Below are positions 529-18,811 of a DNA stretch of 28,298 bases, piece after piece. Origin of the DNA: a virus. Under the pieces are notes generated by a model, which had not been told where the DNA came from, ran no database searches, and was given only the letters and a program-made list of their open reading frames with translations. Position numbers and translations under genes: made by a program. The number at the start of each line of letters is the position of its first letter. The first letter of the stretch is position 1. The stretch is taken from the IMG/VR virus record IMGVR_UViG_3300046501_000357, positions 1 to 28,298 of that record; one strand, 5' to 3'.

Positions 529-550
529 AACATCGCTAAAATTCAATGCG

Positions 551-1503: not shown

Positions 1504-1809
1504 ATGTCGAACTATTCAGCCGACCAGATTATTGCCTGCCGCCGCGTCGCAATGGAGCAAAACCAAAAGCTTTTCGAGGAGGCAAACGCCCTCAATCGGT
1601 CAGCACTTGACCTCCTGGAACGTAGTGACTTCGACAGTGAAATGTTTTTGGTTTATCTGCAGGTTAAAAAAAGGGCAGAAAACCGGTTTAGCGAAGCGCT
1701 AGAACATGCCATTTTACTGAATGAGCATTTCCCCTCCACCGAAGCTCCAAAATACCCACAGATGGAACAATCGGAAGTAAGAGCGGAAGAGCTGGTAAAT
1801 CAGACTTAG
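1504..1809 (+). CDS. Small hypothetical protein (101 aa)
   Basis: The ATG at 1504 follows a GAAGG motif about ten bases upstream. The 101-residue product looks mostly helical (LFEEANALNRSALDLLER, then VYLQVKKRAENRFSEALEHAILL) with a charged C-terminal tail, and has no signal peptide, membrane segment or catalytic motif I can see. I do not recognise the family. It sits alone between a 180-base and a 163-base non-coding stretch and could be transcribed independently. A longer alternative frame that starts at 1457 overlaps it and looks non-coding. The reading rests on the good start site and on protein-like composition. Confidence 0.55.
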   Translation: MSNYSADQIIACRRVAMEQNQKLFEEANALNRSALDLLERSDFDSEMFLVYLQVKKRAENRFSEALEHAILLNEHFPSTEAPKYPQMEQSEVRAEELVNQT

Positions 1810-1972
1810 CCAATCCATAGAGTAAAGCGACATGATTCGAGGCTAGGAACTTCTCTGCCATCGCAGGCAGCAACTGGCGTAGCTAGTCATTCACCGCTCA
1901 CCTGAAAACATGGGGTAGTATGGCTGGACGGCACAACGATTTGACTGCAGCATTGCATTAAGGCCTTTGATC

Positions 1973-4900: not shown

Positions 4901-6121
4901 CTCAAAGGCTATGTGAAGATCGCTCGCGACCTCACCGGTCACAAGCGCCTGCAGGACGAACAAACTCAACGGCTGGCCGAAACCCAAACCAGCAGCCATC
5001 TCAAAGACGAGTTTTTCGCGGTGATGTCCCATGAGCTCAAGCACCCGCTCAACCTCATCCAACTCAATGCCGAACTGCTGCGTCGCCTGCCGATGACCAA
5101 AAGCGTCAGCCCGGCCATGAAGGCGGTCAATACCATTTGCGACGCGGTGTCGAGTCAGGCGCGGATCATCGACGACCTATTGGATGTTGCCCGGGTGCGC
5201 ACTGGCAAACTCAAGCTGAAAAAACAGGCAGTGGATCTGGGACGGATTCTGCAGGACATCCACACGGTGGTGGTCAACGATCAACACCCTTGCGAAATCA
5301 TCCTGCAGGTACCCCAGCCGCCGGAGCCACCGCTGGTGGTCGATGCTGATAGCACGCGCCTGGAACAGATCATCTGGAACCTGGTGAACAATGCCCTGAA
5401 GTTCACCCCCAAGGATGGTCGCATTGAGCTGATCGCCCGGCGCGTCGAGGATGTAGCGCAATTGGACGTCATCGACAGCGGCATTGGCCTTGAAGAGGAT
5501 AACCTGCACAAGGTGTTCGACCTGTTCACCCAGGCGGAAAACCAGCATGCCACCCATCAGCGCGAGGGCCTGGGCATTGGCCTGTCACTGGTGCGGCAAC
5601 TGGTGGAAGCCCACGGTGGCTCGGTGGATGTGCGCTCCGAAGGCATTGGCTGCGGTTGCACGTTCTCCATCCGCCTGCCGCTGTGCCACCCCCATCAAAC
5701 TGCGCCTGATCAAGCCCAGAACGCGGCTGAATCCGGGCGCCTGCTTGGCCAGAAAGTGCTCTTGGTGGATGACTCTCGAGACGTGATGGAAGTGCTGCAA
5801 ATGCTGCTGGAGATGGAGGACGCGCACGTGGAAGCTTTCAGCGATCCGCTACTGGCCCTGAAAGCTGCGAAAGAAGGCAACTACGACGTGATCATTTCCG
5901 ACATTGGTATGCCAGTCATGGATGGCCACAAGCTGATCCAGGCCATTCGCCAGATCACCCATCACAAATACACTCCGGCCATTGCCCTTACGGGTTACGC
6001 CACCAGCATTGACCAGCAAAAAACCAGACAGTCGGGGTTCAACTACCACGTGAGCAAGCCGGTCGCCCATGATGAATTCATCGACATTATTGACGAGGCT
6101 TGCAAAACTCGGCCGTATTAA
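1973..6121 (+). CDS. CheB-CheR-PAS hybrid sensor histidine kinase with receiver domain
   Basis: The 1382-residue protein has, in order: a CheB-type methylesterase domain (about 20-200) with its Ser-His-Asp residues visible at S32 (GASAGG), H59 (FHLSPDYPSQ) and D151 (SGTGSDGAVG); a CheR-type SAM methyltransferase domain (about 225-505; SAGCSTGEEAYSLA); a PAS-like segment (540-655); a long Glu-rich coiled coil (670-752); two PAS domains (755-865, 870-990); HisKA with phospho-acceptor H1020 (SHELKHPLN); HATPase (1120-1240); and a C-terminal receiver with D1310 (SDIGMP). There is no N-terminal receiver before CheB. Such fusions are known in proteobacteria and are thought to link methylation chemistry with phosphorelay signalling; the ligand is unknown. 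No membrane segment is seen. ATG at 1973 is preceded by AAGG nine bases upstream; an in-frame TTG at 1967 is less likely. It converges on the phage late operon. Confidence 0.92.
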   Translation: MTSSVKRSPNVPQRKELIPSTLPFPVVGIGASAGGLQAVKSFFEHMPNDNGMAFVIIFHLSPDYPSQVDRIIQEVTKMPVRQVTETISIEKNTVYVISPAHNLMMNDGYLSVAPSDRPPGMHVAIDLFFRDLADVHKERAFCLILSGTGSDGAVGLSRIKEQGGITLVQTPEDAEYDGMPRAAINTQMVDLVLPVVEMPQKLLELWRNSKSITLPTANDPEIKTTPPASERDAALAEQQLQDILLQLRNGTGHDFKHYKRATVLRRIERRLQVTAQPDLGAYYDYLQAHPEETKALLGDMLIGVTNFFRDREAFEALERNVIPDLVKSLQDTLPRRDEIRVWSAGCSTGEEAYSLAILLTEQMTLESSPAKLQVFATDIDDRAIAFGRSGVYPEAIITDVPPPRMRQYFTLENHHYRVRKEIREKVLFAKHSLLLDPPFSQLDLIVCRNLLIYLDREVQRDIMQMFHFALRPGGYLFLGSSESADGCLDLFTPVDKRNRIFRAKSVSSSPRRAPTLPRGGYARTTVATRPLQPAVARKVSFADIHLRALDKAAPPSIIVDASANILHMSEGAGRFLRYVAGEISRNLLTLAHPDLRLDIRTTLYQVQQSGLPVTSRKIRIEREQRSYLVDLNVHPYKDDETDSEYTLVIFEEREVDPQELLDISASQTENQMLANLEHELQRTKLQLQETVEQSEVSSEELKASNEEMHAINEELRSATEELETSKEELQSINEELLTVNAELKAKVEETDKVNDYLTNLIASTDIATVFVDRNMRIRWFTPRATEIFSMLPVDTGRSLMDITHRLDYPEIAEDAATVFESLNMIEREVCSSDQRWYIARLLPYRSSEDHIDGTVLTFIDISKRRAAEEELRISEERMRLVAESTHDFAIIILDDNGVITDWNTGAKLIFGYSKEEVLGAYYDLIFTPEERSSGAPEIELCAAREHGRGEDERWHLRKDGSRFYCSGEVIRLEGESLKGYVKIARDLTGHKRLQDEQTQRLAETQTSSHLKDEFFAVMSHELKHPLNLIQLNAELLRRLPMTKSVSPAMKAVNTICDAVSSQARIIDDLLDVARVRTGKLKLKKQAVDLGRILQDIHTVVVNDQHPCEIILQVPQPPEPPLVVDADSTRLEQIIWNLVNNALKFTPKDGRIELIARRVEDVAQLDVIDSGIGLEEDNLHKVFDLFTQAENQHATHQREGLGIGLSLVRQLVEAHGGSVDVRSEGIGCGCTFSIRLPLCHPHQTAPDQAQNAAESGRLLGQKVLLVDDSRDVMEVLQMLLEMEDAHVEAFSDPLLALKAAKEGNYDVIISDIGMPVMDGHKLIQAIRQITHHKYTPAIALTGYATSIDQQKTRQSGFNYHVSKPVAHDEFIDIIDEACKTRPY

Positions 6122-6158
6122 CCCCGCGACGTCTTGCTCTGAGCGGTCATTTGCCATC

Positions 6159-6196
6159 GTCGAAGGGCTACTATTCGTCGACTAAAGCCCTTCAAC
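6159..6196. terminator. Hairpin between the convergent host-type gene and phage late operon
   Basis: GTCGAAGGGCT (6159-6169) pairs with AGCCCTTCAAC (6186-6196) with one G-T pair, giving an 11-bp stem around a 16-base loop. It fills most of the 76-base space between the sensor kinase stop and the Rz stop and could stop transcription from both sides. No T run follows on either strand, so a factor-independent role is not certain. Confidence 0.5.
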
Positions 6197-6197
6197 T

Positions 6198-6731
6198 TCA
6201 GCGCATAACTTCACCCACGTATGACTGGCACGCGGCCAATGCAATCAGTCCTTGGTCGCCGGCGTCAGTGATGGCGACAATTCGTTGAGCATGCGCTGGG
6301 TCAAGTTCGGCTCTCGTGACTCCATGAACCACACCGCCGGCGCTGGTAGTGGCTGACACCCCAGCACCACCGGAGGAACCGGCGGCGAGTAGGACTGACA
6401 ACCGCACATCAGCAGTGGCAAGGCGATCAGACAGGCGTTGTTGAGCTTTTTTTGCATCGGACAGTTCCTTGTGGTGGGTTTCATCGTTGGCCTGCAGGCG
6501 GTGCTCCAGGGCGCTGCGCTTGGCCTGCTCGATCACCAGTGCGGCCAGGGCATCCTTGGCGCGCTTGAGCGCCGCCTGATCGACCTTGCCGGCCTGCTCG
6601 GCCAGGGCCTTGCCATAACGCCAGTCTTGCACCTGCCAGGCGCCGCCAGCGGCTGCGCCGGCGATCGCCAGCAACACCAGGACCACCGCCCAGGGGCGCA
6701 GCGTCGGAGGAATCAGCTCGATCAGCTGCAT
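6198..6731 (-). CDS. Rz-like i-spanin (lysis protein)
   Basis: The 177-residue protein begins with one N-terminal membrane segment (residues about 11-30, RPWAVVLVLLAIAGAAAGGA) followed by a long charged, helical periplasmic part (AKRSALEHRLQANDETHHKEL). This is the layout of Rz, the inner-membrane spanin that with Rz1 fuses the two membranes at the end of lysis. The start at 6731 overlaps the endolysin stop by ten bases and has an AAGG motif upstream; longer versions of the frame run antisense-style through the endolysin and are rejected. The Rz1 gene is nested inside it in another frame, the classic spanin arrangement. It is the last gene of the late operon. Confidence 0.85.
   Translation of the reverse strand: MQLIELIPPTLRPWAVVLVLLAIAGAAAGGAWQVQDWRYGKALAEQAGKVDQAALKRAKDALAALVIEQAKRSALEHRLQANDETHHKELSDAKKAQQRLSDRLATADVRLSVLLAAGSSGGAGVSATTSAGGVVHGVTRAELDPAHAQRIVAITDAGDQGLIALAACQSYVGEVMR
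6245..6457 (-). CDS. Rz1-like o-spanin lipoprotein, nested in Rz
   Basis: Entirely inside Rz in a different frame. The ATG at 6457 follows an AAGGA motif at good spacing, which is preferred over the upstream ATG at 6484. The 70-residue product has a lipoprotein signal (KKLNNACLIALPLLMCGC, cleavage likely before the second Cys) and then a short Pro-rich stretch (SYSPPVPPVVLGCQPLPAP), as in Rz1. It should be lipid-anchored in the outer membrane and bind the C-terminal end of Rz across the periplasm. Nested Rz1 genes are standard in phages of Gram-negative hosts, so this also supports the Rz call. Confidence 0.85.
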   Translation of the reverse strand: MQKKLNNACLIALPLLMCGCQSYSPPVPPVVLGCQPLPAPAVWFMESREPNLTQRMLNELSPSLTPATKD

Positions 6732-7381
6732 AGCACCGCCTTGGCCTTGGCCCACAGCTCGCGACGCTCGGCCCGGCCATTGCCGCCGCCGTTGATCACG
6801 CTGCTGATGCCGTCGAACAACCCGAGGTCGGCCTTTTCGCTCAAGTTGCGATCCCACCAGAACCAGGCCGCCGACAGCGCCGCGTATTCCGCCTGCTCCA
6901 GCAGCTCGGGTTGCTCGACCAGGGGAACGCCCAGGGCCTTGCAGCACAGCCGATAGTTGTCGCGAAAGGTGATGCCGATCAAGCCGCGCGCGCGGTACTT
7001 GTAGCCGTCGCCGGACGCCTCGGGGCCGTTACCGTAACGCCCGCCATACACCCGGTTGGCCAGCTTTTCCGAATTGCGCAAATAACCCTGGGCAAACTCG
7101 ACCTCGGCCGGATCGACGCGGCCGTTATGGTTGAGGTCAAAGCCATACTTGAACAACTGCGCGACCCGCTCGGCGTCCTTGTAATACAGGCTTTCCGACA
7201 GCTTGGTCAGCTGCGCCGACTCGTGGCCGATCTGCGCCAGAAACGCCGCCTGGCGCGCCCGGGTGTTGATGTCGAAACGGGCCATGGCGCGATTCAGCGC
7301 CGGCAGGAACGCACCGACCACCGGCCGGCAGTTGGGCAGGATGGCCAGCAGGTGTTGTTGGGTCAGCGGGGGGTAAGCCAT
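6722..7381 (-). CDS. GH19 (chitinase-fold) endolysin with an EF-hand-like insertion
   Basis: The 219-residue protein matches phage lysozymes of glycoside hydrolase family 19, which cut the peptidoglycan sugar backbone. The catalytic region is visible: FLAQIGHESAQL (likely general acid E54), a second Glu at E63 (SESLYY), NRVYGGRYGNG, YKYRARGLIGITFRDNY and AAWFWWDRN. Between the catalytic helix and NRVYGG it carries a 12-residue loop, D82 to E93 (DLNHNGRVDPAE), with the EF-hand spacing of ligands. The usual RGRGLIQ-TGR motif is altered (A for the first G, G for Q, F for G). There is no signal peptide or N-terminal anchor, so export would need a holin, which is not in this window. An SD (TGGAG) lies before the ATG at 7381, just after an intrinsic-type hairpin. 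Confidence 0.9.
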   Translation of the reverse strand: MAYPPLTQQHLLAILPNCRPVVGAFLPALNRAMARFDINTRARQAAFLAQIGHESAQLTKLSESLYYKDAERVAQLFKYGFDLNHNGRVDPAEVEFAQGYLRNSEKLANRVYGGRYGNGPEASGDGYKYRARGLIGITFRDNYRLCCKALGVPLVEQPELLEQAEYAALSAAWFWWDRNLSEKADLGLFDGISSVINGGGNGRAERRELWAKAKAVLCS

Positions 7382-7399
7382 TGCATAAACTCCAGGCGT

Positions 7400-7421
7400 A
7401 AAAAAACCGCCCGTGGGCGGT
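7400..7421 (-). terminator. Intrinsic terminator-like hairpin between hub gene D and endolysin
   Basis: On the - strand ACCGCC/GGCGGT (7406-7411 with 7416-7421) forms a short GC-rich stem followed by seven T residues (7400-7406). It lies 18 bases before the endolysin start, just ahead of its ribosome-binding site. Confidence 0.75.
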
Positions 7422-7435
7422 CAGAGGGATAGGGA

Positions 7436-8476
7436 TTACAGCGGGGAAACGACTCTCAGCGGCGCGGCGGGCTTCTTGCCCTTGGCCTTGGCCTTGCCCT
7501 GCTTGCCACCGTTGCATTCAACGGTGGTCGACCAGCCGGACTGGGTGAATACCTGTTCCAGGGAATCGACCAGGTACTCACCATCGAGCCCGACCTTGAA
7601 CCCCGAGGCGTTAATCACCCGCTCGGCGAACAGGTCGGTACGCCCGGGCATTTCCAGGCGCACGGCGGCGGTCGAGCGGTTGAACGCGGCCAGGCGCGCC
7701 TTGACCGCCTGCTCGGCGGCGGTCTTGTTCGGGTGAATATGCCGATCGGTATGCACCGGTGGCAGGCCGTCCGGCGCATCGGCATTGCTCAGGCTGACCA
7801 CCGTCAGTTTGCCGGTGGCCTTGTCCTGGAACTGCGCATTGACCGCCTTGTGGGTCGAGCGATCGCCGAGGCGGAATGAAAAGCGGCTGACGTCGGCCCG
7901 GGTGATGGTCACGACACCCAAAGCCTTGCCGCTGGCCGTGACGCCACCTTGACGCGGCATGACCAGCAACTTGCCGTCCGCCACCTTGGCCGTGCAATCG
8001 TGCTGCCTGGCCAGCCGGGTGATGAAATTAAAATCCGACTCGCCGAGCTGGTCAGCCCGGGGCACGATCGTGCCCACGCTACAGACCGGCTCCCAGCCGT
8101 TGCGCCGGGCGACGGTGGCCACGATGGTGGCCAGACTGACGTTTTCCCAACTGCCGCTGCGCGTGGTCTTGCCACTGCCGCGCATGTCGCTGGCCTTGCC
8201 CCGGATCACCAGGGTATCCGGTGGGCCGGACAGCTCGATCTCGTCGACCGTGTAACGCCCCAGGCGCACCAGGCTGGTTTCGGCATAGCCCAAATAGATT
8301 TCGATACTGGCCCCGCGCTCGGGCAGCGACACGGCGCCGTCCCGGTCATCAATGCGCAATTCGAATTCGTCCGACTCCATGCCGGGCTTGTCCAGGGTGC
8401 GCAGCAACAGCAGGCGGTCGTTGATCAGGCGGGTGATGTCGCTGCCGTTGGCAACGATACGAAACAGTGGGGTCAT
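7436..8476 (-). CDS. D: P2 gpD-like tail hub protein (late control gene D family)
   Basis: This 346-residue protein matches the gpD family, the baseplate hub that links spike V to the tube in contractile tails. P2 D is 387 residues. The N-terminal part (MTPLFRIVANGSDITRLINDRLL...DEFELRIDDRDG...IEIYLGYAE) is the first hub beta-barrel. The central EPVCSVGTIVPRADQLGESDFNFITRLARQHDC region is the most characteristic signature of the family. The C-terminal tail is Lys-rich and low in complexity (KQGKAKAKGKKPAAP). It follows X in P2 order. A GGAG motif precedes the ATG at 8476, only a few bases past the T run of the hairpin at 8489-8514, which leaves no space for a promoter of its own. Confidence 0.92.
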   Translation of the reverse strand: MTPLFRIVANGSDITRLINDRLLLLRTLDKPGMESDEFELRIDDRDGAVSLPERGASIEIYLGYAETSLVRLGRYTVDEIELSGPPDTLVIRGKASDMRGSGKTTRSGSWENVSLATIVATVARRNGWEPVCSVGTIVPRADQLGESDFNFITRLARQHDCTAKVADGKLLVMPRQGGVTASGKALGVVTITRADVSRFSFRLGDRSTHKAVNAQFQDKATGKLTVVSLSNADAPDGLPPVHTDRHIHPNKTAAEQAVKARLAAFNRSTAAVRLEMPGRTDLFAERVINASGFKVGLDGEYLVDSLEQVFTQSGWSTTVECNGGKQGKAKAKGKKPAAPLRVVSPL

Positions 8477-8488
8477 GGTGGCTCCAAC

Positions 8489-8514
8489 AAAAAGCCCCGC
8501 ACTTAGGCGGGGCT
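8489..8514 (-). terminator. Intrinsic terminator-like hairpin between X and D
   Basis: AGCCCCGC (8493-8500) and GCGGGGCT (8507-8514) make a perfect 8-bp stem with a 6-base loop; on the - strand it is followed by TTTTT (8489-8493). It is nearly identical in sequence to the hairpin at 23255-23275. Only 12 bases separate the T run from the D start codon. Confidence 0.85.
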
Positions 8515-8533
8515 CGGGGAAATTTCAACAGGC

Positions 8534-8547
8534 CGTTACGCGTAACG
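8534..8547. repeat. Palindrome copy 1 (CGTTACGCGTAACG)
   Basis: A perfect 14-base palindrome lies one base past the gpX stop codon and 20 bases before the hairpin at 8489-8514. The 12-base core GTTACGCGTAAC recurs at 12149-12160 and 21496-21507. It could be a protein-binding DNA site or, as RNA, a hairpin with a CGCG loop. Confidence 0.85.
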
Positions 8548-8548
8548 C

Positions 8549-8758
8549 TCAGCTCCACAACTGGATCACCTGGTCAGCGCTGGCCCGGGCCAGCTCAGGC
8601 AGCACGATCAGCAGCCCGCCGCGATACGGCTGGACCTCGACCGACAACCCGGGGTTGGCCGCCAGGACCGCCTCGACGCTGCCGTCCAGGTGGCCGTAAT
8701 AGTTGTGACAGAGGGTAAACAGCACGTCCCCGTCAGTGGTTCTGCAAGTCCTCGCCAT
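8549..8758 (-). CDS. X: P2 gpX-like tail protein (LysM-like)
   Basis: The 69-residue product is close in length to P2 X (67) and has the family pattern: an N-terminal GDVLFTLCHNYYGHLDGSVEAVLAANPGL, as in LysM-type repeats, then PYRGGLLIVLPEL. Tail protein X takes part in late tail assembly, and LysM-like folds often clamp hub parts together. The ORF begins with a TTG at 8767, but the ATG at 8758 is the likely start, with GGAG upstream. It overlaps the end of U by 26 bases, so translation of the two is probably coupled. The palindrome and a terminator-like hairpin follow directly. Confidence 0.88.
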   Translation of the reverse strand: MARTCRTTDGDVLFTLCHNYYGHLDGSVEAVLAANPGLSVEVQPYRGGLLIVLPELARASADQVIQLWS

Positions 8759-9578
8759 AGCGGACAAACTCCAGGGTAAAGGCTTGTTTGCGCGGGATAC
8801 CGCCCTGCAACAGGGCGCTTTGTTCTTCCTCGATGTTGGTCAGACACCAATCGCCCAGGACCAGCCCATAACCGGTGGTCAACCCCAGCGGCAGCAACTG
8901 GTTGCCGATGCTGCGCAAGGTGTCCAGCTGCTTGAGCCCGCCCTTGTGCCCGGGAAAGATCGCGCCCTTGAGGGTCATTTTCTCATCGCCGATGCCGACC
9001 GCCTGCTGCGCCTGGCGCCGCGTCAGCCGCTCCTGGCTGGCCCAGCGGAACGCGCTTTGCCGGCGCAGCTCGTCAAAGGCGGCCGTGTCCAGGTTGAAGT
9101 AATACGGCTGCGCGCTGGTCTTGTGCGGCTGAAGAATCAACAGGTGCGGAAACGCCTTGATCGCCTCCACCGCCGGCGTCTGGTCCGGGGCAAACACGCT
9201 GGTGGGCAGGATGTCGCCCAGCGCCGGATTGAGTTTGCCGGCGATCTGGTTGATCGCGCTTTTGGCCCGCGCCGCCTGCGCACCCAACACACCTAAGCGC
9301 TCATCGATCTGCGACACGGCGCGCGTGGCCTGGTTGTAGACCGCCACCACCTTGCCGACATTGGCCTGGGCGGTGTTGATGCCACGCATGACCCGTTGCA
9401 GCTTCTCACCGACGATCGGCCCCACGATCGGCAGGCTCTCCAGCTCCGACGCGGCGCCGGTGATTTCGCCGATCGCGCCATTGACCGGCCCCAGCATGCC
9501 GTCCAGGCTGCGCCGCCCCGCTTCACCGGCGGTCGCCAGATAACCGAGGGTGCTTTGCAGCTGCTCCATGTAGGCCAT
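8733..9578 (-). CDS. U: P2 gpU-like tail protein with a long N-terminal extension
   Basis: The C-terminal ~140 residues match tail protein U of the P2 group: EKMTLKGAIFPGHKGGLKQLDTLRS, then GLVLGDWCLTNIEEEQSALLQGGIPRKQAFTLEFVRYGED. gpU is needed to complete the tail; P2 U is 159 residues, whereas this protein has 281. The additional ~135 N-terminal residues are Ala- and Gln-rich and look helical (SLDGMLGPVNGAIGEITGAASELE, then QATRAVSQIDERLGVLGAQAARAKSAINQIAG), with no signal peptide. The start is secure: a strong TAAGGAGGTG ribosome-binding site overlaps the T stop codon. Between T and X, its position is that of U in P2. Confidence 0.85.
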   Translation of the reverse strand: MAYMEQLQSTLGYLATAGEAGRRSLDGMLGPVNGAIGEITGAASELESLPIVGPIVGEKLQRVMRGINTAQANVGKVVAVYNQATRAVSQIDERLGVLGAQAARAKSAINQIAGKLNPALGDILPTSVFAPDQTPAVEAIKAFPHLLILQPHKTSAQPYYFNLDTAAFDELRRQSAFRWASQERLTRRQAQQAVGIGDEKMTLKGAIFPGHKGGLKQLDTLRSIGNQLLPLGLTTGYGLVLGDWCLTNIEEEQSALLQGGIPRKQAFTLEFVRYGEDLQNH

Positions 9579-9587
9579 GGCACCTCC

Positions 9588-12137
9588 TTACCCAATATGC
9601 GGGCTGTCGTACAGTTGGCGAGCATTGGCCCGGCGGGCCGAGTCTTCCAGCTCCCGCGAAAAGTCGCGGAACCGGTTTTGCATCATCGCATCCAGCTGGC
9701 GGGTCAACTCCGCCGGGTCCTTTACATCACCCTCGATCGTGATCGGCATATGCGGGGCAAAGGTGATTTTCTGCTCGATCGCGGCCGGCTGGATCTCCGG
9801 CTTGAGCAACAGCGGCGACGGCGGTAGCGGCGGACCCGTCGGTGCCGTCATCGAGCGCACGACATCCCCCGGCGCCGACTCACTGCCAAACAGCGACTTG
9901 GCCAGCGTCGACTTGCCCAGCATCGCCCCCAGCGATTCGCCCCCCATCGCGCCCAGCATGGCGCCGACCATGCCGCCCACCGCCGTGCCGAGGATGGGCA
10001 CCACCGAACCGATCGCCGCGCCGGCGGCCGCACCGGCCATGGTCCCCGCCAGGCCGCCGGCGGCGGCGCCGTAGCCTTCGCCCTTCTCGTCGTCGGTCTT
10101 GGCCGTGGTGTATGTCTCAAAGACCTTGACGCCCGCCTCGATCACCGTTTCACCCGGGAGCGCCTTGCCCAGCTTGCCCAGCTTGCTCACCGTCCCGACC
10201 ACATCCCGCAAGCCCAACCCGGCGGACGACGACGGCGCCGCCGGTGATGGTGCCGGTGGTGGTGCCGGTTGCGGTGGTGCCGGTCGCGGTACCGGTCGCG
10301 GTGGCACCCCGGGGCGGCGTGACCGACGCGGCGCGCGACGACTGTCGCCCCCCGCACCCGGCCCGCCGAAGTCCCCGGCGTTGACCACAAAGACCTTTTG
10401 AATGGGCGCGGCAGGGACGCCCGGCTTGCCCCCGCCCGGGGCATCGGGCACTGTCCGGCCGGGATCCACCGGATCACGGCGTCGGCCGGCTGGCGACTCC
10501 GGCGCATCGGCGTCCGGGGCCCCGCCGTCACGCGCGCCCAGCCGACCCCGGGCGACATTGAGCACCCCCCGGCCGATCTTGATGGTTTTCAGCACCGTCA
10601 TGGCCGCCAGCGCACTGGCGCCCAGGCCGGTCAGCCCCATGACCACCATCGGCGATGCATCGCTGATGCTGGTAATGCCCTTGGCCGCCGAGGCCAACCC
10701 GCTGGCCAGCGCGTCGGTGGCCGGGCGAATCGCATCACCCACGCTGCGCAACGCCTCATTGCCCGCTTGCAACGCCTCGCTCCACTTCTGTGACGAGGTA
10801 TCGCGGCGCTCGGCCAGGTTCTTGTCGAGAATCCCCGAGGCGCTGCCGGCTTTCGATTTCAGTTCGTCATACAGCGCCTTGTTTTGCACATAGGCCGCCA
10901 GCGCCGACTTGACCTGCATATCCGCGAAAATGTCGCCGGTGCGCAACATCTGCTCCAGGCTATTGAGCATTTCCTTGGCTTTGGCCGGGTCGGTTTCCTG
11001 GTTGATCTTGGCCGTCGCCTCGGCCATTGCCTGGGCCTTTTTTGGGTCCGTGGCTTCGACGTACTGCTTGGCCAGGCCAAAACTTGCCTCCAGCGTCGAC
11101 ATGCCGTTTTGAATGCCGTCGTTGAGCGACTTCTGGTAATCGATCCCCGCGTCTGCATACGACTTGACCACATCCCCGGAACCGATTTTCTCGATCCAGT
11201 TTTTCAGGTTATTGGCCGCCTCGTCGGCGGTGCCGGCGGTCTTCATCTGCACCTGGAGCATTGAGCCCAGTTGCGTCACCGCATCCATGCCAGTGATGCC
11301 CTGTTTCTGCATGCCGGCCAGCAATTCCGGGAACCAGCGCGCCATGTCGCTGGCCTCAAAGCTGCCCGCCTGGCCTTGGTAGGCCACCGCCTCCAGCGCC
11401 TTCTCCAATTGCTTGGGGTCGGTGATCTTGGCGTTGCTTTGCAGCGCGTAGATCATCTTGGCGGTGTCGACCCCGGTCGAGCCCTGGCCGATCACAAATT
11501 TGGCCGCCACCGGGGCGAACTCCAGCGCCTGGCGCAGCTCCATACCGGCGCCGACCAACTGGTTCACCACATCGGCCACGTCGTTGCGACCCATGCCGAC
11601 GTCTTGCGAGGTCTGAATCACCCGGCGCGACACCTGCGCTTCCTGGTCGGTCCTGGCCACCCCGGCCTTGATCGCAATGTCCCGAATGATCGCCTGATAG
11701 TCCGCGCTGACCTTGGTCGGGATCGCCATCAACCCCATGCCAACCGAGGCCTGCGCAATGCCGTCGCGCAAGCCCTGCTTGCCCTGGTCAATCTGGTGGT
11801 GCCCCTTGGCCTGTAGTTCGGCGCTGCGCCCGCCCCGGCCCAGGCGATCGTATTCGCGCGCCAGGCGCCCGACCTCGACGCCCTCCTTGCGCAACACATT
11901 GAGGTTGTTTTCCAGGCGCTTTAACAGCGCCGAGGCGCCTTTTTCGCCCGCGTCATGGGCCTTTTTCCACGCATCCTGCAGGCGCATGGTCTCGCCGATA
12001 CTGCTTTGCAGCACCCGCGCCTTTTTGCCCTTGTCGCTCAGCGACTTGACGCGGTTTTCCACGTCCCGGAATGCGGCGCCCACGGTCGAGCTGACCGCGC
12101 CGCCGATCACCAGGCCGAGCGCCATCTTGTTTGCCAT
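9588..12137 (-). CDS. T: Tail tape measure protein (P2 gpT-like)
   Basis: At 849 residues it is close to P2 T (815), so the tail should be roughly as long as that of P2 (inference). The N-terminal ~110 residues are charged coiled coil (VENRVKSLSDKGKKARVLQSS, MRLQDAWKKAHDAGEKGASALLKRLENNL), followed by the TP901-type tape-measure core (DYQAIIRDIAIKAGVARTDQEAQ, DVADVVNQLVGAGMELRQALE, QLGSMLQVQMKTAGTADEAANNLKNW). A hydrophobic segment is near 510-540 and a Gly/Ala-rich one near 705-750 (GTMAGAAAGAAIGSVVPILG), typical of proteins that enter the host membrane. Between them is a Pro/Arg-rich low-complexity linker (about 560-660). It follows the two chaperone frames and has a copy of the palindrome 12 bases before its start. 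Confidence 0.93.
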   Translation of the reverse strand: MANKMALGLVIGGAVSSTVGAAFRDVENRVKSLSDKGKKARVLQSSIGETMRLQDAWKKAHDAGEKGASALLKRLENNLNVLRKEGVEVGRLAREYDRLGRGGRSAELQAKGHHQIDQGKQGLRDGIAQASVGMGLMAIPTKVSADYQAIIRDIAIKAGVARTDQEAQVSRRVIQTSQDVGMGRNDVADVVNQLVGAGMELRQALEFAPVAAKFVIGQGSTGVDTAKMIYALQSNAKITDPKQLEKALEAVAYQGQAGSFEASDMARWFPELLAGMQKQGITGMDAVTQLGSMLQVQMKTAGTADEAANNLKNWIEKIGSGDVVKSYADAGIDYQKSLNDGIQNGMSTLEASFGLAKQYVEATDPKKAQAMAEATAKINQETDPAKAKEMLNSLEQMLRTGDIFADMQVKSALAAYVQNKALYDELKSKAGSASGILDKNLAERRDTSSQKWSEALQAGNEALRSVGDAIRPATDALASGLASAAKGITSISDASPMVVMGLTGLGASALAAMTVLKTIKIGRGVLNVARGRLGARDGGAPDADAPESPAGRRRDPVDPGRTVPDAPGGGKPGVPAAPIQKVFVVNAGDFGGPGAGGDSRRAPRRSRRPGVPPRPVPRPAPPQPAPPPAPSPAAPSSSAGLGLRDVVGTVSKLGKLGKALPGETVIEAGVKVFETYTTAKTDDEKGEGYGAAAGGLAGTMAGAAAGAAIGSVVPILGTAVGGMVGAMLGAMGGESLGAMLGKSTLAKSLFGSESAPGDVVRSMTAPTGPPLPPSPLLLKPEIQPAAIEQKITFAPHMPITIEGDVKDPAELTRQLDAMMQNRFRDFSRELEDSARRANARQLYDSPHIG
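10235..10312. repeat. GC-rich low-complexity tract inside the tape measure gene
   Basis: Short imperfect repeats of GGTGCCGGT and GGTCGCGGT type run through this stretch on the + strand. On the coding strand they encode a Pro-rich linker (RPVPRPAPPQPAPPPAPSPAAP). The tract is in frame and probably a length-variable flexible spacer. Confidence 0.7.
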
Positions 12138-12148
12138 AGGAATGCCCT

Positions 12149-12160
12149 GTTACGCGTAAC
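12149..12160. repeat. Palindrome copy 2 (GTTACGCGTAAC)
   Basis: A perfect 12-base palindrome with a G at the 3' flank as in the other copies (the 5' flank is T instead of C). It lies in the 35-base space between the short GpE-type frame and the start of the tape measure gene, close to the expected ribosome-binding region of T. Confidence 0.85.
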
Positions 12161-12172
12161 GAAGGGAAAGGC

Positions 12173-12298
12173 TCAATCCGTGAGCCACCAAAGCATGCGG
12201 TCGAACCGCATGGCTTCGATTTCGCTGGCCGAGAAATGCGTCTCCCGGGCCAGCCGTTTGGCCACCGCCTTAATTGTCGTAGGGGTAAGGCTCATCAT
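12173..12298 (-). CDS. Short GpE-type tail assembly protein (41 aa), overlapping E
   Basis: This short frame overlaps the end of E in the +1 frame. It begins with ATGATG (12298 and 12295) and encodes 41 residues: MMSLTPTTIKAVAKRLAR, then ETHFSASEIEAMRFDRMLWWLTD. The C-terminal pattern (F-x2-SEIEAM then a Trp-rich end) fits the GpE family of P2-group phages, whose members sit between E and T and are often expressed as a frameshift extension of E that binds the tape measure protein. P2 uses a -1 shift; here the relation is +1 (equal to -2). A CCC-U site (12281-12284) lies in the overlap and could allow a +1 slip. The ribosome-binding site ahead of the ATGs is weak, so either separate initiation or frameshifting is possible. 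Confidence 0.75.
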   Translation of the reverse strand: MMSLTPTTIKAVAKRLARETHFSASEIEAMRFDRMLWWLTD

Positions 12299-12587
12299 CT
12301 TCGACCAGGCGAAAATAGCCGGCCTGAATGCGGTTGTAGTCCACGATCGTCAGCGCCTCCATGTCCTTGGTGCCGGCGTCCGCCAACGAGGCAAACAGGA
12401 TCACCTCGCGCTTTTCCGCATCGCCGCCGGATTGCAGGGTGGCGGCGCGCAAGTCGGCCACCGTGGGCGCGCGCAGGCTAACGCGCTGGACCTTCACCTG
12501 GTTGATCTCCGAAGCCTTGCGCAAGGTGATGTTTGCGCCCTCGTCGGTCAGTTCCAGCCAGCTTGGCAGTTTCTTGGTGGTCGTCAT
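12270..12587 (-). CDS. E: P2 gpE-like tail assembly chaperone
   Basis: The 105-residue protein matches phage tail assembly chaperones of the E type (P2 E is 91 residues): ITLRKASEINQVKVQRVSLRAPTVADLRAA, then a second helical half with FASLADAGTKDMEALTIVDYNRIQAGYF. These proteins coat the tape measure before the tube forms and do not enter the virion. The frame is open to a TTG at 12602, but the ATG at 12587 is preferred because GAGGA lies eight bases upstream. It follows the tube gene after 11 bases, and its end overlaps the short GpE-type frame. Order tube - E - E' - T is the same as in P2. Confidence 0.9.
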   Translation of the reverse strand: MTTTKKLPSWLELTDEGANITLRKASEINQVKVQRVSLRAPTVADLRAATLQSGGDAEKREVILFASLADAGTKDMEALTIVDYNRIQAGYFRLVEDDEPYPYDN

Positions 12588-12598
12588 CGTCTTAGTCC

Positions 12599-13102
12599 TC
12601 AAATGCCCAGGGCGGCGCGTTCATCGGCCAGTTGATCCACGCCATCAATGACGCGCACGCAGTTGACCGGGTCGATTTCGAACATCACCCGGCCGTCAAT
12701 TTCCAGCTTGTAATAGGTCACAGACACCGAGTATTTGAACTCGGCTTTTTCGCCCGCCTTCCAGTCCCCCGGATCGACCTCACGCAGGCCGCCACGCAGG
12801 GTGGCCACCACCGCCTTGGTCGCACCTTTCTGGCCCTTGAACGCGCCCCGGAAAGACGCGTTAAAGCCGGTCTGGTCGAAGGCGCCGAAGTGTTTCAGCA
12901 CCTCGCGGCGCACGCCGTTGGTGGTAAAGCCGGCCTCCAGCTTTTCCAGACCCATATCCATGTCGATCGGCGCATCCATACCGCCGGCGCGGTATTCCTC
13001 GACCTTGACCGACAGCTTGGGCAAATTCAGGCTCGGTACATCGCCTTGCAGGCTGTTACCACCGACAAACATGTTGGTGTTGTGCAGTACTTCAGGAATC
13101 AT
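12599..13102 (-). CDS. FII: Tail tube protein (P2 FII-like)
   Basis: The 167-residue protein matches the major tail tube protein of contractile tails (P2 FII, 172 residues). The start MIPEVLHNTNMFVGGNSLQGDVPSLNLPKLSVKVEEYRAGGMDAPIDMDMGLEKLEA is typical of the family, as is the end with YYKLEIDGRVMFEIDPVNCVRVIDGVDQLADERAALGI. It polymerises into the inner tube through which DNA passes. It lies 12 bases past the sheath stop, the normal FI-FII order, and should be made in high amount. The preceding stretch GGAGGCGCGCAC supplies a strong ribosome-binding site. Confidence 0.95.
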   Translation of the reverse strand: MIPEVLHNTNMFVGGNSLQGDVPSLNLPKLSVKVEEYRAGGMDAPIDMDMGLEKLEAGFTTNGVRREVLKHFGAFDQTGFNASFRGAFKGQKGATKAVVATLRGGLREVDPGDWKAGEKAEFKYSVSVTYYKLEIDGRVMFEIDPVNCVRVIDGVDQLADERAALGI

Positions 13103-13114
13103 GTGCGCGCCTCC

Positions 13115-14275
13115 TTAGGCTACGTCGAGAACTTCGGTCATCCACTGGTTGGTTACCTCGACTTCGAAAATCGGGTTTTCCGCCGGCGGCACATCAGAGA
13201 AACGAATCGACCAGACCACCTTGCCCTGTTCGATCTGGCTCGCGGTGTTGCGCTCGGGGTCGGCAAACACTTCGAAGTTGATCACCGCGCCCTGGGCCTT
13301 GAGGTCGCGCATAAAGGCGTTGAGGCCTTCGGTCACTTCCTTGATGTAAGTCTTGGTGATGCCCAGGTCGACCGCCCAACGGTGGCCCGCCTGAATCGCC
13401 GCCATGACCATGTCGACGGTGCGCACACGGGTGACAAACGACCATTTTTCATCGCTGGACAGGGTGCGGTTGCCCCACGCCCGATAACCGCCGTCGCGAA
13501 TGATGGTGGTGATCTTGGCGTTGTTGAGGATGTTGGCCCGGCAGGACGGGTCGTTGTCCAGGTACTCCACGGCGCGGCCGGTGCCGGTGATGCCGGCGAT
13601 TTCCTTGTTCGACGGCGACGACCAGAAGCCATAACGCGCATCGGTCTGCGCGAACAGTCCGGCCATCATGGCCGAGGCCGGCAGGATCTCTTCGGCGTCG
13701 GTGGTGGTGTTCCAGCGCTTGATGCCCGGATCGACCAAAAACAGGCGCTTGTTGCTCAGCTCGGTGGCGTAGGCAATCGCCGCCTCGTCGGTCGTGCCCG
13801 GGCCGTCGACGATACCGATCGCGCCCAGCTTGCCCACCAGTACACCCATGGCGGTGGCCACCGCCTCGGTCGCGCTGTGCTTGGGTGCCACGACCAGCCG
13901 CGGTTGCAGGTTGAACAGGCTTTTACCGTCCAGCAGGGCTTGCAGGCCGGTACGTTTGCCGTTCGCCTGGACGCCGCCGATCACCGCGCTGGTCAGCGCC
14001 GCCGCCTCGCCCGAGGACGTCACACCGACTGCCACAATGACCGCCGCCGCCTGATCAAAAATCGTCAGGGCGGCCTTGGTGATCGGCGAGTTAGCGCCAA
14101 ACGCAGCCACCGCCTCGCGCGGGCTGGTCAGCAGCGTGGGCACGTTGTCCTGCACCAGCCCCAGCCCCGGGGTGAAGGTGTCGACCAGGCCGATGATCGA
14201 CGACGACGGTAAGCTGATAATGCGGGCGCCGGACTCGACCAGGCTGGTCGTGACACCGTGAAAGAAGCCACTCAT
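13115..14275 (-). CDS. FI: Tail sheath protein (P2 FI-like)
   Basis: The 386-residue product matches contractile tail sheath proteins (P2 FI, 396). Family features include the N-terminal FFHGVTTSLVESGARIISLPSSSIIGLVDTF, the central NKRLFLVDPGIKRWN, RAVEYLDNDPSCRANILNNAKITTIIRDGGYRAWGNRTLSSD, and the C-terminal VNFEV-type strand region ending EVEVTNQWMTEVLDVA. The sheath contracts to drive the tube into the host cell and proves a myovirus-type tail. AGGAG precedes the start at 14275. A terminator-like hairpin sits between this gene and the fibre gene upstream, yet only 22 bases separate its T run from the start codon, so transcription probably enters by readthrough. Confidence 0.95.
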   Translation of the reverse strand: MSGFFHGVTTSLVESGARIISLPSSSIIGLVDTFTPGLGLVQDNVPTLLTSPREAVAAFGANSPITKAALTIFDQAAAVIVAVGVTSSGEAAALTSAVIGGVQANGKRTGLQALLDGKSLFNLQPRLVVAPKHSATEAVATAMGVLVGKLGAIGIVDGPGTTDEAAIAYATELSNKRLFLVDPGIKRWNTTTDAEEILPASAMMAGLFAQTDARYGFWSSPSNKEIAGITGTGRAVEYLDNDPSCRANILNNAKITTIIRDGGYRAWGNRTLSSDEKWSFVTRVRTVDMVMAAIQAGHRWAVDLGITKTYIKEVTEGLNAFMRDLKAQGAVINFEVFADPERNTASQIEQGKVVWSIRFSDVPPAENPIFEVEVTNQWMTEVLDVA

Positions 14276-14297
14276 AAAAACGCTCTCCTAAGAAACG

Positions 14298-14320
14298 AAA
14301 AAACCGCCCAATTGGCGGTT
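14298..14320 (-). terminator. Intrinsic terminator-like hairpin between tail fibre and sheath
   Basis: AACCGCC (14302-14308) pairs with GGCGGTT (14314-14320); on the - strand a run of six T residues (14298-14303) overlaps and follows the stem. It is 24 bases past the fibre stop and 22 bases before the sheath start. Confidence 0.8.
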
Positions 14321-14343
14321 GCGTGAAACGGGTATTGCCTGAA

Positions 14344-15921
14344 TTACATCGGGGTCATGCGGTAGCCCACGGCGAGCCAGCGCACGCCGATGTTCTGCAC
14401 GTTGTTGTTATATTCGGTGAAACTCAGGGTGAAGCCGCCGGTGGTCAAGGAGCCTTCGTTCAGGGCACACGTCACCGTCGCGGCCGCCACATTGCCGCCT
14501 GCATGCTGGGTAATCACCGGCAGGACAATAAAAGGCGCCGTATCAAAGCCCCAGGTGAAGCCAAACGGCACGTTCCACACCCCGCCGGGGGTGTCGCCCA
14601 GGTGCGCGACGCCCCACTGCACGAACAACCCGGTGTTTTTGTCCCACCAGAAACCATTGGCGCTGTGCCACAGCGCCGCCGGCGACGCGGCACCAATGTT
14701 CGCCCGGGCCGACGCCGCGTCCCAACCGCCGGTGCCACCGCGCCACAGCGGCAGTTGACCCGAGACCATGGCGCTGGCATCAAAGCCGGCCAACGTCAGC
14801 GCCACGTTGACGTCCGAAAGGCCACTGAGCCAGGCCCCGCCACTGGCGGCGCCGGAAAAACTCAGGTAACGCCCGTTCAGCCACTGCGACGCGCTGGCCG
14901 CGTTGCCGGTGGTGTTGCGGGTCAGCGTGCCGGTGGTGATCTTGCTGGCATCGAGCGCCGGAATGTCCGCCGCCGTCAGGCCCATGCCCTCCACCACCAG
15001 GCCCTTGGCATTGACCCGGACCTTGCCGTAACTGCCGGCCGGCACGCCGCTGTTACCCAGCGTCATGTGGATATCGACGTTGCCCGAGCCATCAAACAGG
15101 CCATTGCCCGCCAGGTCGCCGCTGTAACTGATCTTGCGCGCGGTCTGCAACTTACTCGCCGTGCCGGCGTTCCCAGTGGTGTTGCGGTCCAGCGTGCCGC
15201 TGGTGATCTTGCTGGCATCGAGCGCCGGAATGTCCGCCGCCGCCAGGTTGGTCGCCGATTTCACTCGGCCTTTGTCATCGACCGTGACCTTGGTGTAAGT
15301 GCCACCGGCCACGCCGGTCTTGGACAGCGCCAGGGCGATGCTCAAAGGCGCCGAACCGTCGAACTGGCCCTGGCCCGTGGCGTCGCCCGTGAGCGCGATG
15401 GCGCGCGGCGTCTTCAGCTTGCGTGCGCTGGCCGCCTCGCCCTGGTCGATCGCCTCCTGCACCACGCCGAGGGTCGCCGTGACCGTGTTCGGGTCATTGA
15501 TGATTTGCACGGTGGCCGTGCTGCTGACCTGGATCACCAGGCGAATCACCTGGGTGCGGCCGCTGCCCTGCTCGCGCACTGGCTTATAGGTGGCCGGGTA
15601 GCTGGCCACCGCGACCAACAGCCCAGCGTCGTCGTACAGGCCGACCTCGCGCACCCACCAGCCGCCCATCTCGGGCAACAAAATGCCCTCGGCGACAATC
15701 GCCGACTTTTCGCTCTGCGCCGTGAGTCGGTTCAAATTGAAACGGTATTTTTCGCCGATCAGCTTCTTTTGCAATTTCGACGGTAGCGGCGTGACCCCGT
15801 TGCCATCCCCGACCGCCATCTTGGGAATTTTCCACGGCGTGCCGTTGGCAATGGACTTGGCCAACTGCGCCGCGCCCACCTCCGTCAGCATCGCGATATA
15901 AATAATATCCTGCTCTGCCAT
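14344..15921 (-). CDS. Tail fibre protein (P2 gpH-type N-terminus)
   Basis: The 525-residue protein starts with the baseplate-anchoring fibre domain of P2-type phages (MAEQDIIYIAMLTEVGAAQLAKSIANGTPWKIPKMAVGDGNG...GWWVREVGLYDDAGLLVAVASYP, about 1-150). A shaft follows made of two clear repeats 89 residues apart, each with AADIPALDASKIT-GTL-RNTTGNA. The C-terminal ~100 residues (FVQWGVAHLG...VPFGFTWGFDTAPFIVLPV...NNNVQNIGVRWLAVGYR) are a gp53-type receptor-binding tip. It probably forms a trimer and recognises the host surface. No fibre-assembly chaperone gene follows; the next gene is the sheath. The receptor cannot be inferred from the sequence. AAGG precedes the ATG at 15921. Confidence 0.92.
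   Translation of the reverse strand: MAEQDIIYIAMLTEVGAAQLAKSIANGTPWKIPKMAVGDGNGVTPLPSKLQKKLIGEKYRFNLNRLTAQSEKSAIVAEGILLPEMGGWWVREVGLYDDAGLLVAVASYPATYKPVREQGSGRTQVIRLVIQVSSTATVQIINDPNTVTATLGVVQEAIDQGEAASARKLKTPRAIALTGDATGQGQFDGSAPLSIALALSKTGVAGGTYTKVTVDDKGRVKSATNLAAADIPALDASKITSGTLDRNTTGNAGTASKLQTARKISYSGDLAGNGLFDGSGNVDIHMTLGNSGVPAGSYGKVRVNAKGLVVEGMGLTAADIPALDASKITTGTLTRNTTGNAASASQWLNGRYLSFSGAASGGAWLSGLSDVNVALTLAGFDASAMVSGQLPLWRGGTGGWDAASARANIGAASPAALWHSANGFWWDKNTGLFVQWGVAHLGDTPGGVWNVPFGFTWGFDTAPFIVLPVITQHAGGNVAAATVTCALNEGSLTTGGFTLSFTEYNNNVQNIGVRWLAVGYRMTPM
14934..14975. repeat. Fibre gene direct repeat, copy A
   Basis: This 42-base stretch is repeated exactly at 15201-15242 (offset 267 bases, 89 codons). 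Flanking sequence is also similar with scattered differences. It encodes the AADIPALDASKIT part of the fibre shaft. The near identity suggests recent duplication or gene conversion. Confidence 0.85.
15201..15242. repeat. Fibre gene direct repeat, copy B
   Basis: Exact 42-base partner of the stretch at 14934-14975, in the same reading frame of the fibre gene. Unequal exchange between the copies would add or remove one 89-residue shaft unit. Confidence 0.85.
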
Positions 15922-15976
15922 ACCTGCGCCTTGTCTTGAAGTCTGCGCCCCGCCATACCGGCCGGGCCTTGAATGG

Positions 15977-18811
15977 CTACGCCGGAAGCGGCGCGCCGTA
16001 GATGTTCGCCCCGGCCCCGTGGGTGCGGTACTGAATGTAAAGGCTCAGGCCGCGCAGGATCTCCCCCGCCCAAAAGCCGAAGAACATGCCGTTGTCGGTG
16101 CCCAGGCGCACGCCCGGCGACCAACTGCCATTCATGGCCTGGCCCGGTACCGGCGTGACCACGTAATGCTGCTGTAGCTCGCTGACACAGGCCTCAATCA
16201 GCACATCCAGCTCAGCCACCTGACTGCCCGCCAAACCCGCCATGCAGGCACCAGCCAGCCACAGGCCGGTCATATGCCCGGTGAAGTCGTCCGGCACCGG
16301 CTGCGGCACGCTGGCCATGGGAAAATCCGTGGGCAATACCCCGTCGTGCGCCTTCACAAACTGGATCAACCAGGTGATCCAGTTTTCCGCATAGGCGATC
16401 AACTTGGGCGGCACCGGCTTGCCCTGCTGCGCCAGCTCATACCAGGCGCGACAGGCGCCGAAAAAGGCTCGGGACTGGTAGCCGCTCCAGGCCGTACCGT
16501 CGCCCCAGTGGTGCATGGTCCAGGTGTCCGGGTCGCCGTACTTGAAGTTATCCCAGCGGTTCCACACGTAGGCCGAGGCGCCCGGGCCGAGCTGGCCGAA
16601 CCGCTGCTGATACCACTGCTGCGAGTCGTACAGAAAATCGACCATGTTCTTCAGTTCGTTGACGTACTGGTCCAGCGGATCGACGCAGTAAATAAACGGG
16701 TACTGATAACCCGGGTAGGGCATGCCGTGCCAGGCGCCGATCTGGTCGGCACCCTCCGAATAGATGTTGGAAAACGGGATCACCCCGGGGCAATAGGCCA
16801 GCGAATCGTTGCGGTAATCGCGGATCGTGCAATCGCCCACCAGCGCCCGAAACTGCGCCTGGCCGCTGACCGTCAACCGATATTGCAGCGTGTAGCCGTC
16901 TTGCTCGGCAAAGGCCGGCGGCAGGTCATTGACGCAGTAATATTCAAAGGTCAGGTTGGTGTCCGAGTCATCCATAAGGATGCTGAAACCTTTGATTTCC
17001 GAGTACACCGGCGCCGAAGGGTTGGGTCGGCCGTTCTTGTCAGGCTGATAGCTCGACAGCTTACCGGCCGACTTCACGATCGGTAGGGTGACAAAGGCGC
17101 CCCCTGTCGGCGGCAGCATCCACCACCAGCGCCATTTGTTGTCATCGGCAAAGCGCAGATTGAAATAGCCGTCCGACCGATAGGTGATGCTGTGCATCGG
17201 CGCCTTTTCGCTGGCCAGCAGGTAATGCCCGATTTCGTACCATCCCGAATCATCCGGGAAAAACGACTTCACCACCGTGCCGGCGCGCCCTTCAAAAATC
17301 GCTGGTTCGTAACTCTCCACCGAAACGATACCGTCCGAACTCGACACCGCGCGCAGGTCGGCCATGACGTACTCGCTGCCGTCGTCCTTGGTCAGACGGG
17401 TGAACTGCGACAGCGGTATGTCGTGCGTCACCAGCTCGACGCTGGACACCGACTTGGGCAGCGCACAGCCGTACTTGATGCCACTGCCCTCGGCCTTGTC
17501 TTGGGAAATGGTCAACTCCACCTTGGCCGTCAGCGGGCCGTTGTTGATGTCGACGCCGCCGTAACAGGTGCGCACCAGCGAATTCGGGGTAATGCGAAAC
17601 CACACCGATTGCTGCTCGACCGACACCTGGGCGGCCGCGTCGGTCTGCATCGTGATGTACCCCAGCGAGTCGCGGCCCAGCACCGGCGTGACCGTCTCCG
17701 GGTAGGTGAACTCATAGGAAATGCCATCGGTAAACGGCGTGCCCGCCGTCGTGCTCTGCCGAAAAAAGCGGTCGGTCGAGTCGATTTGTGTGTATTCGTG
17801 CGCGGTGAAGCGGCACGCGTCCATGGCCTTCTTGTAGCGACTTTCGCCGGTGATCCGCCACAGCAGATAACAGGCGTCCATGTACCACTCTTCACCGTCC
17901 GCCGCGTTGCCCATCTGATTGACGCTGCCCAGCAGCGGCACATGCAGCGGCCGGTTGTGCTGCACCGCGTTACGCGGGATCAGGTAGCCGCCGTGCTCGA
18001 CTGGCTGCCGGGTCGCATAGTTGAACTTGTGCACGCCGTTGAGGCCGGTGTTTTTCAGTTGCACCCGGCCGCGCTCGGCCAGCGGGTGGCCCTCCGACAA
18101 CACGTCGCCATCCCAGTTAATCTTTTGACCGGTCCAGGCAATGATCCAATCGACGTCATATTGCACGCCGTTCTGATCCCAATCCGTCGCGCCGTCCGGC
18201 TTCACGCCCTTGACGGTTGCGTTGATCGCGTCCCAGGCCAGCGCCCCGTCAAAGGCAAACGTGGCCTTGTCCAGGTACTCGCCCCAGTGCGGCGCGCCGT
18301 GCGGAATCGCCAGCGCGCCGTTGCTGAAAGTGAATGGCACGCCCTTGAAACCGCTGTGCGTGGGCTCGGCGGCGTTGATCGGCCAGTTGGCCAGCACCGG
18401 CTCCTTGGCGTTGACGATCCAATTGGCAATCCGTCGTTGCGGCGTGTCCGGGATCGGCTGGCCCGCGTAGAAATACGCCTCGTAGGCCTCCCAATACCAC
18501 ACAGCGGCCTCCAGATAACGCGGCTCGCGGGTGGCCAGGTAGGCATGCGCATAGCCGAGGATCTGCAAGGCCTGGCCCTCGGTGGTGCCGTCGCCGTTGG
18601 GCTGGTACTCCATTTGCGAATGCGCGATGAAATGCCGGTTGTTCGCCAGCACGCCTTGAGTGTTCTGCACGTAGTGCTGCACCGTGGCGTCGAGCGTGTC
18701 GCCGGTGTTGCGTTGCAGAAAGCGGTGGTGTCCCTCGATCATGCTCAGGGCATTGGCCAGCGTGGCTTTCTGGCTGGTCGCACGGCGACTGTTAAGCGGG
18801 ACTTGAAACAT
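15977..18811 (-). CDS. Large tail-associated protein, predicted (alpha/alpha)6 glycosidase or lyase fold
   Basis: The product has 944 residues and I do not recognise a named family. The N-terminal part holds helical hairpins with aromatic-rich turns typical of six-hairpin glycosidases (EGQALQILGYAHAYLATREP, RYLEAAVWYWEAYEAYFYAG, then about residue 310 EEWYMDACYLLWRITGESRYKKAMDACRF). A beta-rich block follows (about 360-680), and hairpins return at the C-terminus (FGACRAWYELAQQGKPVPPKL, MTGLWLAGACMAGLAGSQ). Many Trp, Tyr and Asp residues suggest carbohydrate binding. Placed between baseplate I and the fibre, it is probably a virion enzyme or adhesin that degrades or binds host polysaccharide. 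ATG 18811 is chosen because GAGGGGGGG precedes it; in-frame starts at 18829 and 18850 are weaker. No signal peptide. Confidence 0.7.
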   Translation of the reverse strand: MFQVPLNSRRATSQKATLANALSMIEGHHRFLQRNTGDTLDATVQHYVQNTQGVLANNRHFIAHSQMEYQPNGDGTTEGQALQILGYAHAYLATREPRYLEAAVWYWEAYEAYFYAGQPIPDTPQRRIANWIVNAKEPVLANWPINAAEPTHSGFKGVPFTFSNGALAIPHGAPHWGEYLDKATFAFDGALAWDAINATVKGVKPDGATDWDQNGVQYDVDWIIAWTGQKINWDGDVLSEGHPLAERGRVQLKNTGLNGVHKFNYATRQPVEHGGYLIPRNAVQHNRPLHVPLLGSVNQMGNAADGEEWYMDACYLLWRITGESRYKKAMDACRFTAHEYTQIDSTDRFFRQSTTAGTPFTDGISYEFTYPETVTPVLGRDSLGYITMQTDAAAQVSVEQQSVWFRITPNSLVRTCYGGVDINNGPLTAKVELTISQDKAEGSGIKYGCALPKSVSSVELVTHDIPLSQFTRLTKDDGSEYVMADLRAVSSSDGIVSVESYEPAIFEGRAGTVVKSFFPDDSGWYEIGHYLLASEKAPMHSITYRSDGYFNLRFADDNKWRWWWMLPPTGGAFVTLPIVKSAGKLSSYQPDKNGRPNPSAPVYSEIKGFSILMDDSDTNLTFEYYCVNDLPPAFAEQDGYTLQYRLTVSGQAQFRALVGDCTIRDYRNDSLAYCPGVIPFSNIYSEGADQIGAWHGMPYPGYQYPFIYCVDPLDQYVNELKNMVDFLYDSQQWYQQRFGQLGPGASAYVWNRWDNFKYGDPDTWTMHHWGDGTAWSGYQSRAFFGACRAWYELAQQGKPVPPKLIAYAENWITWLIQFVKAHDGVLPTDFPMASVPQPVPDDFTGHMTGLWLAGACMAGLAGSQVAELDVLIEACVSELQQHYVVTPVPGQAMNGSWSPGVRLGTDNGMFFGFWAGEILRGLSLYIQYRTHGAGANIYGAPLPA

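Follow-up and report, generated by a model that had tools for sequence, protein, structure and literature searches.

The question raised by this locus is how ribosomes reach the second reading frame of a tail chaperone pair, E′, which overlaps the end of the first, E, in a different frame. The window, by which we mean the whole 28,298-nucleotide stretch of the viral record IMGVR_UViG_3300046501_000357 that was analyzed, contains a lambda-type head module with portal and protease-capsid genes, and a P2-type contractile tail module on the minus strand, adjoined by bacterial-looking genes. Matches to Pfam and PHROG profiles gave the tail gene order as sheath, tube, E, E′ and tape measure. E (12270..12587, minus strand) starts with the ATG at 12587, stops at the TAA at 12270-12272 and encodes the short form of the chaperone, a protein of 105 aa that matches phrog_166, a tail protein, as well as Phage_TAC_7 (PF10109; tail assembly chaperone E/41/14; 7.2e-15) with 55.2 bits, above the gathering score of 25. 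A search for PDB chains matching E at E≤1 found none. In keeping with Phage_TAC_7, E lies between the gene for the tail tube protein FII (12599..13102, minus strand; Phage_tube, 3.3e-58) and that for the tape measure protein T (9588..12137, minus strand; PhageMin_Tail, 1.6e-23; phrog_794, tape measure, 6.7e-184). Scanning the window for Rfam families and tRNA genes gave no matches.

On the minus strand, the E′ frame runs open from 12349, immediately after an upstream TGA (12352-12350), to the TGA at 12175-12173, and over 12270..12349 it is open together with E. The E′ frame is at +1 relative to E, since (12587-12298) mod 3 = 1, rather than in the -1 frame of a P2-type frameshift. This relation had been noted in a first-pass annotation of the window and was borne out there and in all but two of the 227 distinct loci related to it; in those 225 the second ORF is kept as a C-terminal extension in the +1 frame. 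Because the E′ protein is also conserved among these relatives, the +1 relation goes beyond what chance would produce. The WW-L motif of E′ was found by pattern in 223/227 loci, with L217 added by eye. The extensions themselves are poorly covered by profiles: 13 of 17 matched phrog_10636, a family whose function is unknown, while a Pfam search of the same 17 returned scattered weak matches only. The label "GpE-type" that had been given to this frame was not upheld, as none of the 17 extensions matched a Pfam GpE model at E≤1.

The relatives are E homologues gathered from IMG/VR, GTDB contigs, phage records and a genus-level genome sample. The last of these was centred on a genome of Pseudomonas lini and comprised 398 genomes, 116 of which had a match; of the matching places listed, 30 were already among the loci and 80 further regions were fetched, with at least 19 more left out. 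The GTDB contigs contributed 80 of 107 relatives, and one of the two search patterns used for them contained the peptide YFRLV. Among the phage records, 12 of 35 E matches were fetched. A set of loci that had been inspected (L002-L015) was left out of the count, since most of them came back in a second IMG/VR retrieval. After removal of duplicates 227 loci were analyzed, 225 of the +1 type and two, L195 and L196 from a class-level search, of the -1 type. In that class-level sample 3 of 369 genomes matched, namely the centre genome itself and the two of -1 type. The named hosts in the GTDB contig set are nearly all Pseudomonas, the exceptions being one Pantoea and one Paucimonas record, indicating that the named relatives form one clade.

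A single candidate for the point of frame change emerged from the alignment of these loci. Phe92 of E is encoded by UUU, and together with the first base of the following CGC codon it forms UUU_C (12311..12314, minus strand) in the context UAU_UUU_CGC (TAT TTT CGC at 12317-12309), a site that the first-pass annotation had overlooked. When in-frame 4-mers were scanned from -30 to +27 nt around this site, TTTC was the only one present in all 225 relatives of the +1 type. Phe92 is TTT in 218/218, with no synonymous codon change over these tips in a Fitch count on the 225-tip tree, which takes the FastTree topology as given. The next lowest counts among conserved columns upstream of the site were 15-18 codon changes, and Phe65, within the same gene, is TTC in 151 and TTT in 62 loci, with 28 synonymous changes on the tree. 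The codon that follows TTT in the 218 relatives is CGC in 182, CGT in 35 and CGA in 1. In the remaining 7 of the 225 (L227, L229, L241-L244 and L249) GY[TNR]FLV replaces GYFRLV; here the Phe-Arg pair is gone and TTT_C has been regained one codon downstream as TTT_CTG. Thus the window has UUU_CGC, 218/225 relatives have UUU_CGN and the other 7 have UUU_CUG, indicating that CGN is not strictly required. In one locus, L103, UUU_C is kept and the E′ frame is broken.

Duplicated chaperone genes provided an internal control for this conservation. Tandem E-E genes, in which an ORF of ~200 aa contains two E domains, were found in 22 of 113 loci from the genus and class samples (L197-L218; for instance L210, L197 and L207). 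The first copy has lost Phe-Arg in 22/22 cases (AYS, AYK, AYT and similar), while the second copy, which adjoins E′, has kept YFR[LM] with TTT_CGN in 22/22 and is the only copy to do so. Since only the copy next to E′ retains the motif, its conservation can be ascribed to a slip site rather than to the chaperone fold. UUU_C is, in 225/225 relatives, a conserved shift-prone site that allows re-pairing, as in pairs of the G/GT type.

The region that follows UUU_C is dual coding from very close to the site. The second codon of E′ past it shares its bases with E codons 94-95 and reads TGG in 225/225 loci. E codon 94 is limited to CTG, TTG or ATG, in contrast to Leu68, where CTC and CTT are used freely, and in 16 loci codon 94 has changed from Leu to Met with TG retained. 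Wobble variability passes from position 3 of E upstream of the site (0.449) to position 3 of E′ downstream of it (0.435). The extension after the site measures 45 codons in 211/227 loci and 48 in 11, and the stop codon of E itself varies in position, from 6 to 22 codons past Phe92 across the 225 loci.

Two other points of entry into E′ had been proposed, an ATGATG start (12293..12298) and a CCC-U slip site (12281..12284), and both are present on the minus strand at those places, the latter within TAC CCC TAC (12287-12279). The invariant TGG lies upstream of both, which argues that ribosomes enter the E′ frame before reaching either. The first would make E′ an independent small gene, expressed by internal or coupled initiation, and the window does provide an ORF of 41 aa that opens at the ATGATG. 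The same pair of codons recurs in 29/225 loci, however, and in 80 of 227 there is no ATG, GTG or TTG in the E′ frame between the upstream stop and 12 codons past UUU_C. The ribosome-binding site, already described as weak, is indeed so: the anti-Shine-Dalgarno (anti-SD) energy is -2.7 kcal/mol, compared with -5.9 at the start of E in the window, and the means across relatives are -2.8 and -7.0 kcal/mol, respectively. With TGG held under E′-frame constraint upstream of the ATGATG in 225/225 loci, we consider conversion to an independent gene very unlikely, and read the ATGATG as a by-product of E codons for Asp-Asp rather than as a conserved start.

The same constraint, which begins upstream of the CCC-U, bears on a +1 slip there (12284-12281), with UUU kept for some other reason. 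Re-pairing would be possible at this sequence, and Listeria phage PSA is described as using a +1 shift on a proline codon (PMC5009743). Nonetheless, an in-frame CCC-U anywhere in the overlap is present in 18/227 loci and is missing from most relatives, among them the R-pyocin relative L016, making a slip at this position very improbable. The junction would accordingly fall not after EPYP, as had been anticipated, but after Phe92, between ...QAGYF and AWSK.... Relatives with no start codon in frame and no slip site either, the refuting case named in the first-pass annotation, were not seen, UUU_C being present in 225/225.

Taken together, these data make it very probable that E and E′ constitute one recoded gene, in which programmed +1 frameshifting at UUU_C yields a fusion of 137 aa. 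tRNA-Phe decodes both UUU and UUC, so that moving +1 from the former onto the latter amounts to full re-pairing. We propose that most ribosomes would finish E at its own stop, giving the 105-aa form, and that a minority would slip by +1 with peptidyl-tRNA-Phe on UUU. That tRNA would re-pair with UUC, which overlaps UUU; GCC would then be accepted in the A site in place of CGC, and translation would continue for 45 codons (AWSKMM...WWLTD; 12176..12310, minus strand; stop at 12173-12175). The predicted E-E′ fusion spans 12176..12587 on the minus strand, with TTTC at 12314-12311 translated as a single Phe step. By analogy with G and GT of lambda, E may coat the tape measure and E′ may recruit tube subunits.

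Two further mechanisms could give a product in the same frame. A -2 slip, of which phage Mu is a reported case (PMC5009743, PMC2628397), reaches the same frame as +1, and Pfam places E together with "41 or 14". At UUU_C, however, it would put tRNA-Phe on AUU (TATT, 179/225 loci) or on ACU (TACT, 39/225), neither of which is cognate, whereas the +1 step gives UUC, and no other conserved site is available; a -2 slip is therefore extremely unlikely. Transcriptional slippage could likewise mimic a +1 shift. The run at the site, however, is just UUUU, or UUU in the 39/225 loci with TAC before it, and the runs known to support transcriptional slippage are far longer than UUUU. We give this origin of the longer product next to no weight.

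We also searched for elements that might stimulate the proposed +1 slip at UUU_C. RNAalifold returned 0 pairs as the consensus structure of 104 sequences. Sliding windows of 60 nt whose starts lay between +36 and +96 were somewhat more folded than shuffled sequences (mean z -1.0 to -1.8), an excess that we attribute to coding composition (Ala-Ala-Glu ... Ser-Ala-Ala codons), and an RNA stimulator was rejected on these grounds. In the mean anti-SD profile of the relatives no strong SD-like site was found directly before the slip; a weak trough ends at -3 (-3.7) and stronger ones lie near -40 and +17, so an SD-like stimulator was likewise rejected. A slow A site was not evident from codon usage, as CGC is common in the window, where ten ORFs together contain 279 Arg codons, 145 of them CGC. 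In certain tailed phages and in influenza A, shifting seems to proceed without stimulators, according to PMC5009743.

Homologous chaperones of other phages appear to be shifted in the opposite direction. In a group of lytic myoviruses (Persinger, PPpW-3, Mano, ep3, Arya and others) E is 28-39% identical to that in the window and E′ is homologous to the one found here, but their E′ lies in the -1 frame instead of +1. An X_XXY_YYZ heptamer is present within the last four codons of E in 9 of the 11 -1 phages fetched, and the two -1 loci from genomes differ in this respect, L196 having such a heptamer and L195 none. When the E′ of the +1 group was compared with that of nine -1 type phages, the two were homologous (hhalign probability 96.6, E 6e-10), indicating that opposite shift directions serve the same domain pair. 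A change of recoding mode, one of the two possibilities raised initially, is thus the best reading. As judged from sequence, the direction would differ by lineage, with +1 at UUU_C in prophages of Pseudomonas and in one R-pyocin cluster, and -1 in the other phages examined. A +1 shift at UUU_C that has no detectable stimulator, the bacterial equivalent of the PA-X motif of influenza, has probably been fixed in the contractile tails of Pseudomonas, prophages and R-pyocin cluster alike. Homologues of this gene share its E′ domain and shift at a -1 heptamer some two codons distant, so that the direction has probably switched. In the two exceptions among the 11 phages, Xanthomonas phages FoX3 and Murka (L018 and L021), E′ lies at -1 and E ends in GGC CGT TTT ACC with no X_XXY_YYZ heptamer; part of their E′ frame has been annotated as a gene of its own.

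Tail chaperones with -1, -2 or +1 shifts are already known (PMC5009743). In P2, E and E+E′ measure 91 and 142 aa (PMC3091744), a two-form output similar in size to the 105 and 137 aa predicted here, from a gene pair located between tube and tape measure genes in both; P2, however, shifts by -1 at the heptamer TTTTTTG. Among +1 cases, the haloarchaeal virus HSTV-2 and the forward shifts of actinobacteriophages (PMC5009743, PMC10885494) concern tail chaperones that shift in the +1 direction, as proposed for the window. The +1 shifts of Listeria phage PSA and bacterial prfB (PMC5009743, PMC10885494, PMC3711429) take place, respectively, on a proline codon that adjoins a pseudoknot or stop and on a CUU that precedes a stop and is accompanied by an SD; the site in the window is on a sense codon, and no stimulator was found. 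A parallel in mechanism comes from influenza A PA-X and plant amalgaviruses, where UUU_CGN is a known +1 motif and tRNA-Phe re-pairs to UUC (PMC5052127), as proposed here, with no evident stimulator in influenza A by the account of PMC5009743. Those are eukaryotic viruses translated by eukaryotic ribosomes, and here 7/225 relatives use UUU_CUG. No description of a UUU_C +1 site in Pseudomonas contractile-tail chaperones was found in the PMC open-access literature; +1 tail chaperones and UUU_CGN are each known, and it is their combination that appears new within the open-access literature searched. The authors of PRFect state that no general motif has been identified for forward frameshifts (PMC10885494). 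The present loci amount to an extensive natural alignment of a proposed +1 site at a sense codon, in which the tandem E-E genes and the shifted sites act as internal controls, and they present one homologous gene pair with opposite shift directions in different lineages. They also allow a long chaperone form, with its exact junction, to be predicted in 225 distinct sequences, including one from an R-pyocin cluster.

That sequence, OQ658366 (L016/L277), was the closest match in the phage collection and has tail genes with no annotated head genes. Over 386/386 residues (850 bits), the sheath it encodes matches that of R2 pyocin, PA0622, whose structure has been solved. The E gene of OQ658366 has UAC_UUU_CGC and an E′ at +1, with neither CCC-U nor ATGATG, which leads us to predict the +1 shift for R-type pyocins too. 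The record (1-18475) was deposited as a Pseudomonas phage genome and looks like an R-pyocin cluster.

Elsewhere in the window, an ORF of 957 aa (15977-18850, minus strand) had no Pfam match but matched phrog_2871, a tail protein family, very strongly (1461 bits), and is flanked by tail fibre and baseplate genes. The left end (817-6121, plus strand) carries bacterial-type genes, including a NUDIX protein and a CheB-CheR-PAS-hybrid histidine kinase of 1384 aa at 1967-6121, which suggests that a prophage boundary lies there.
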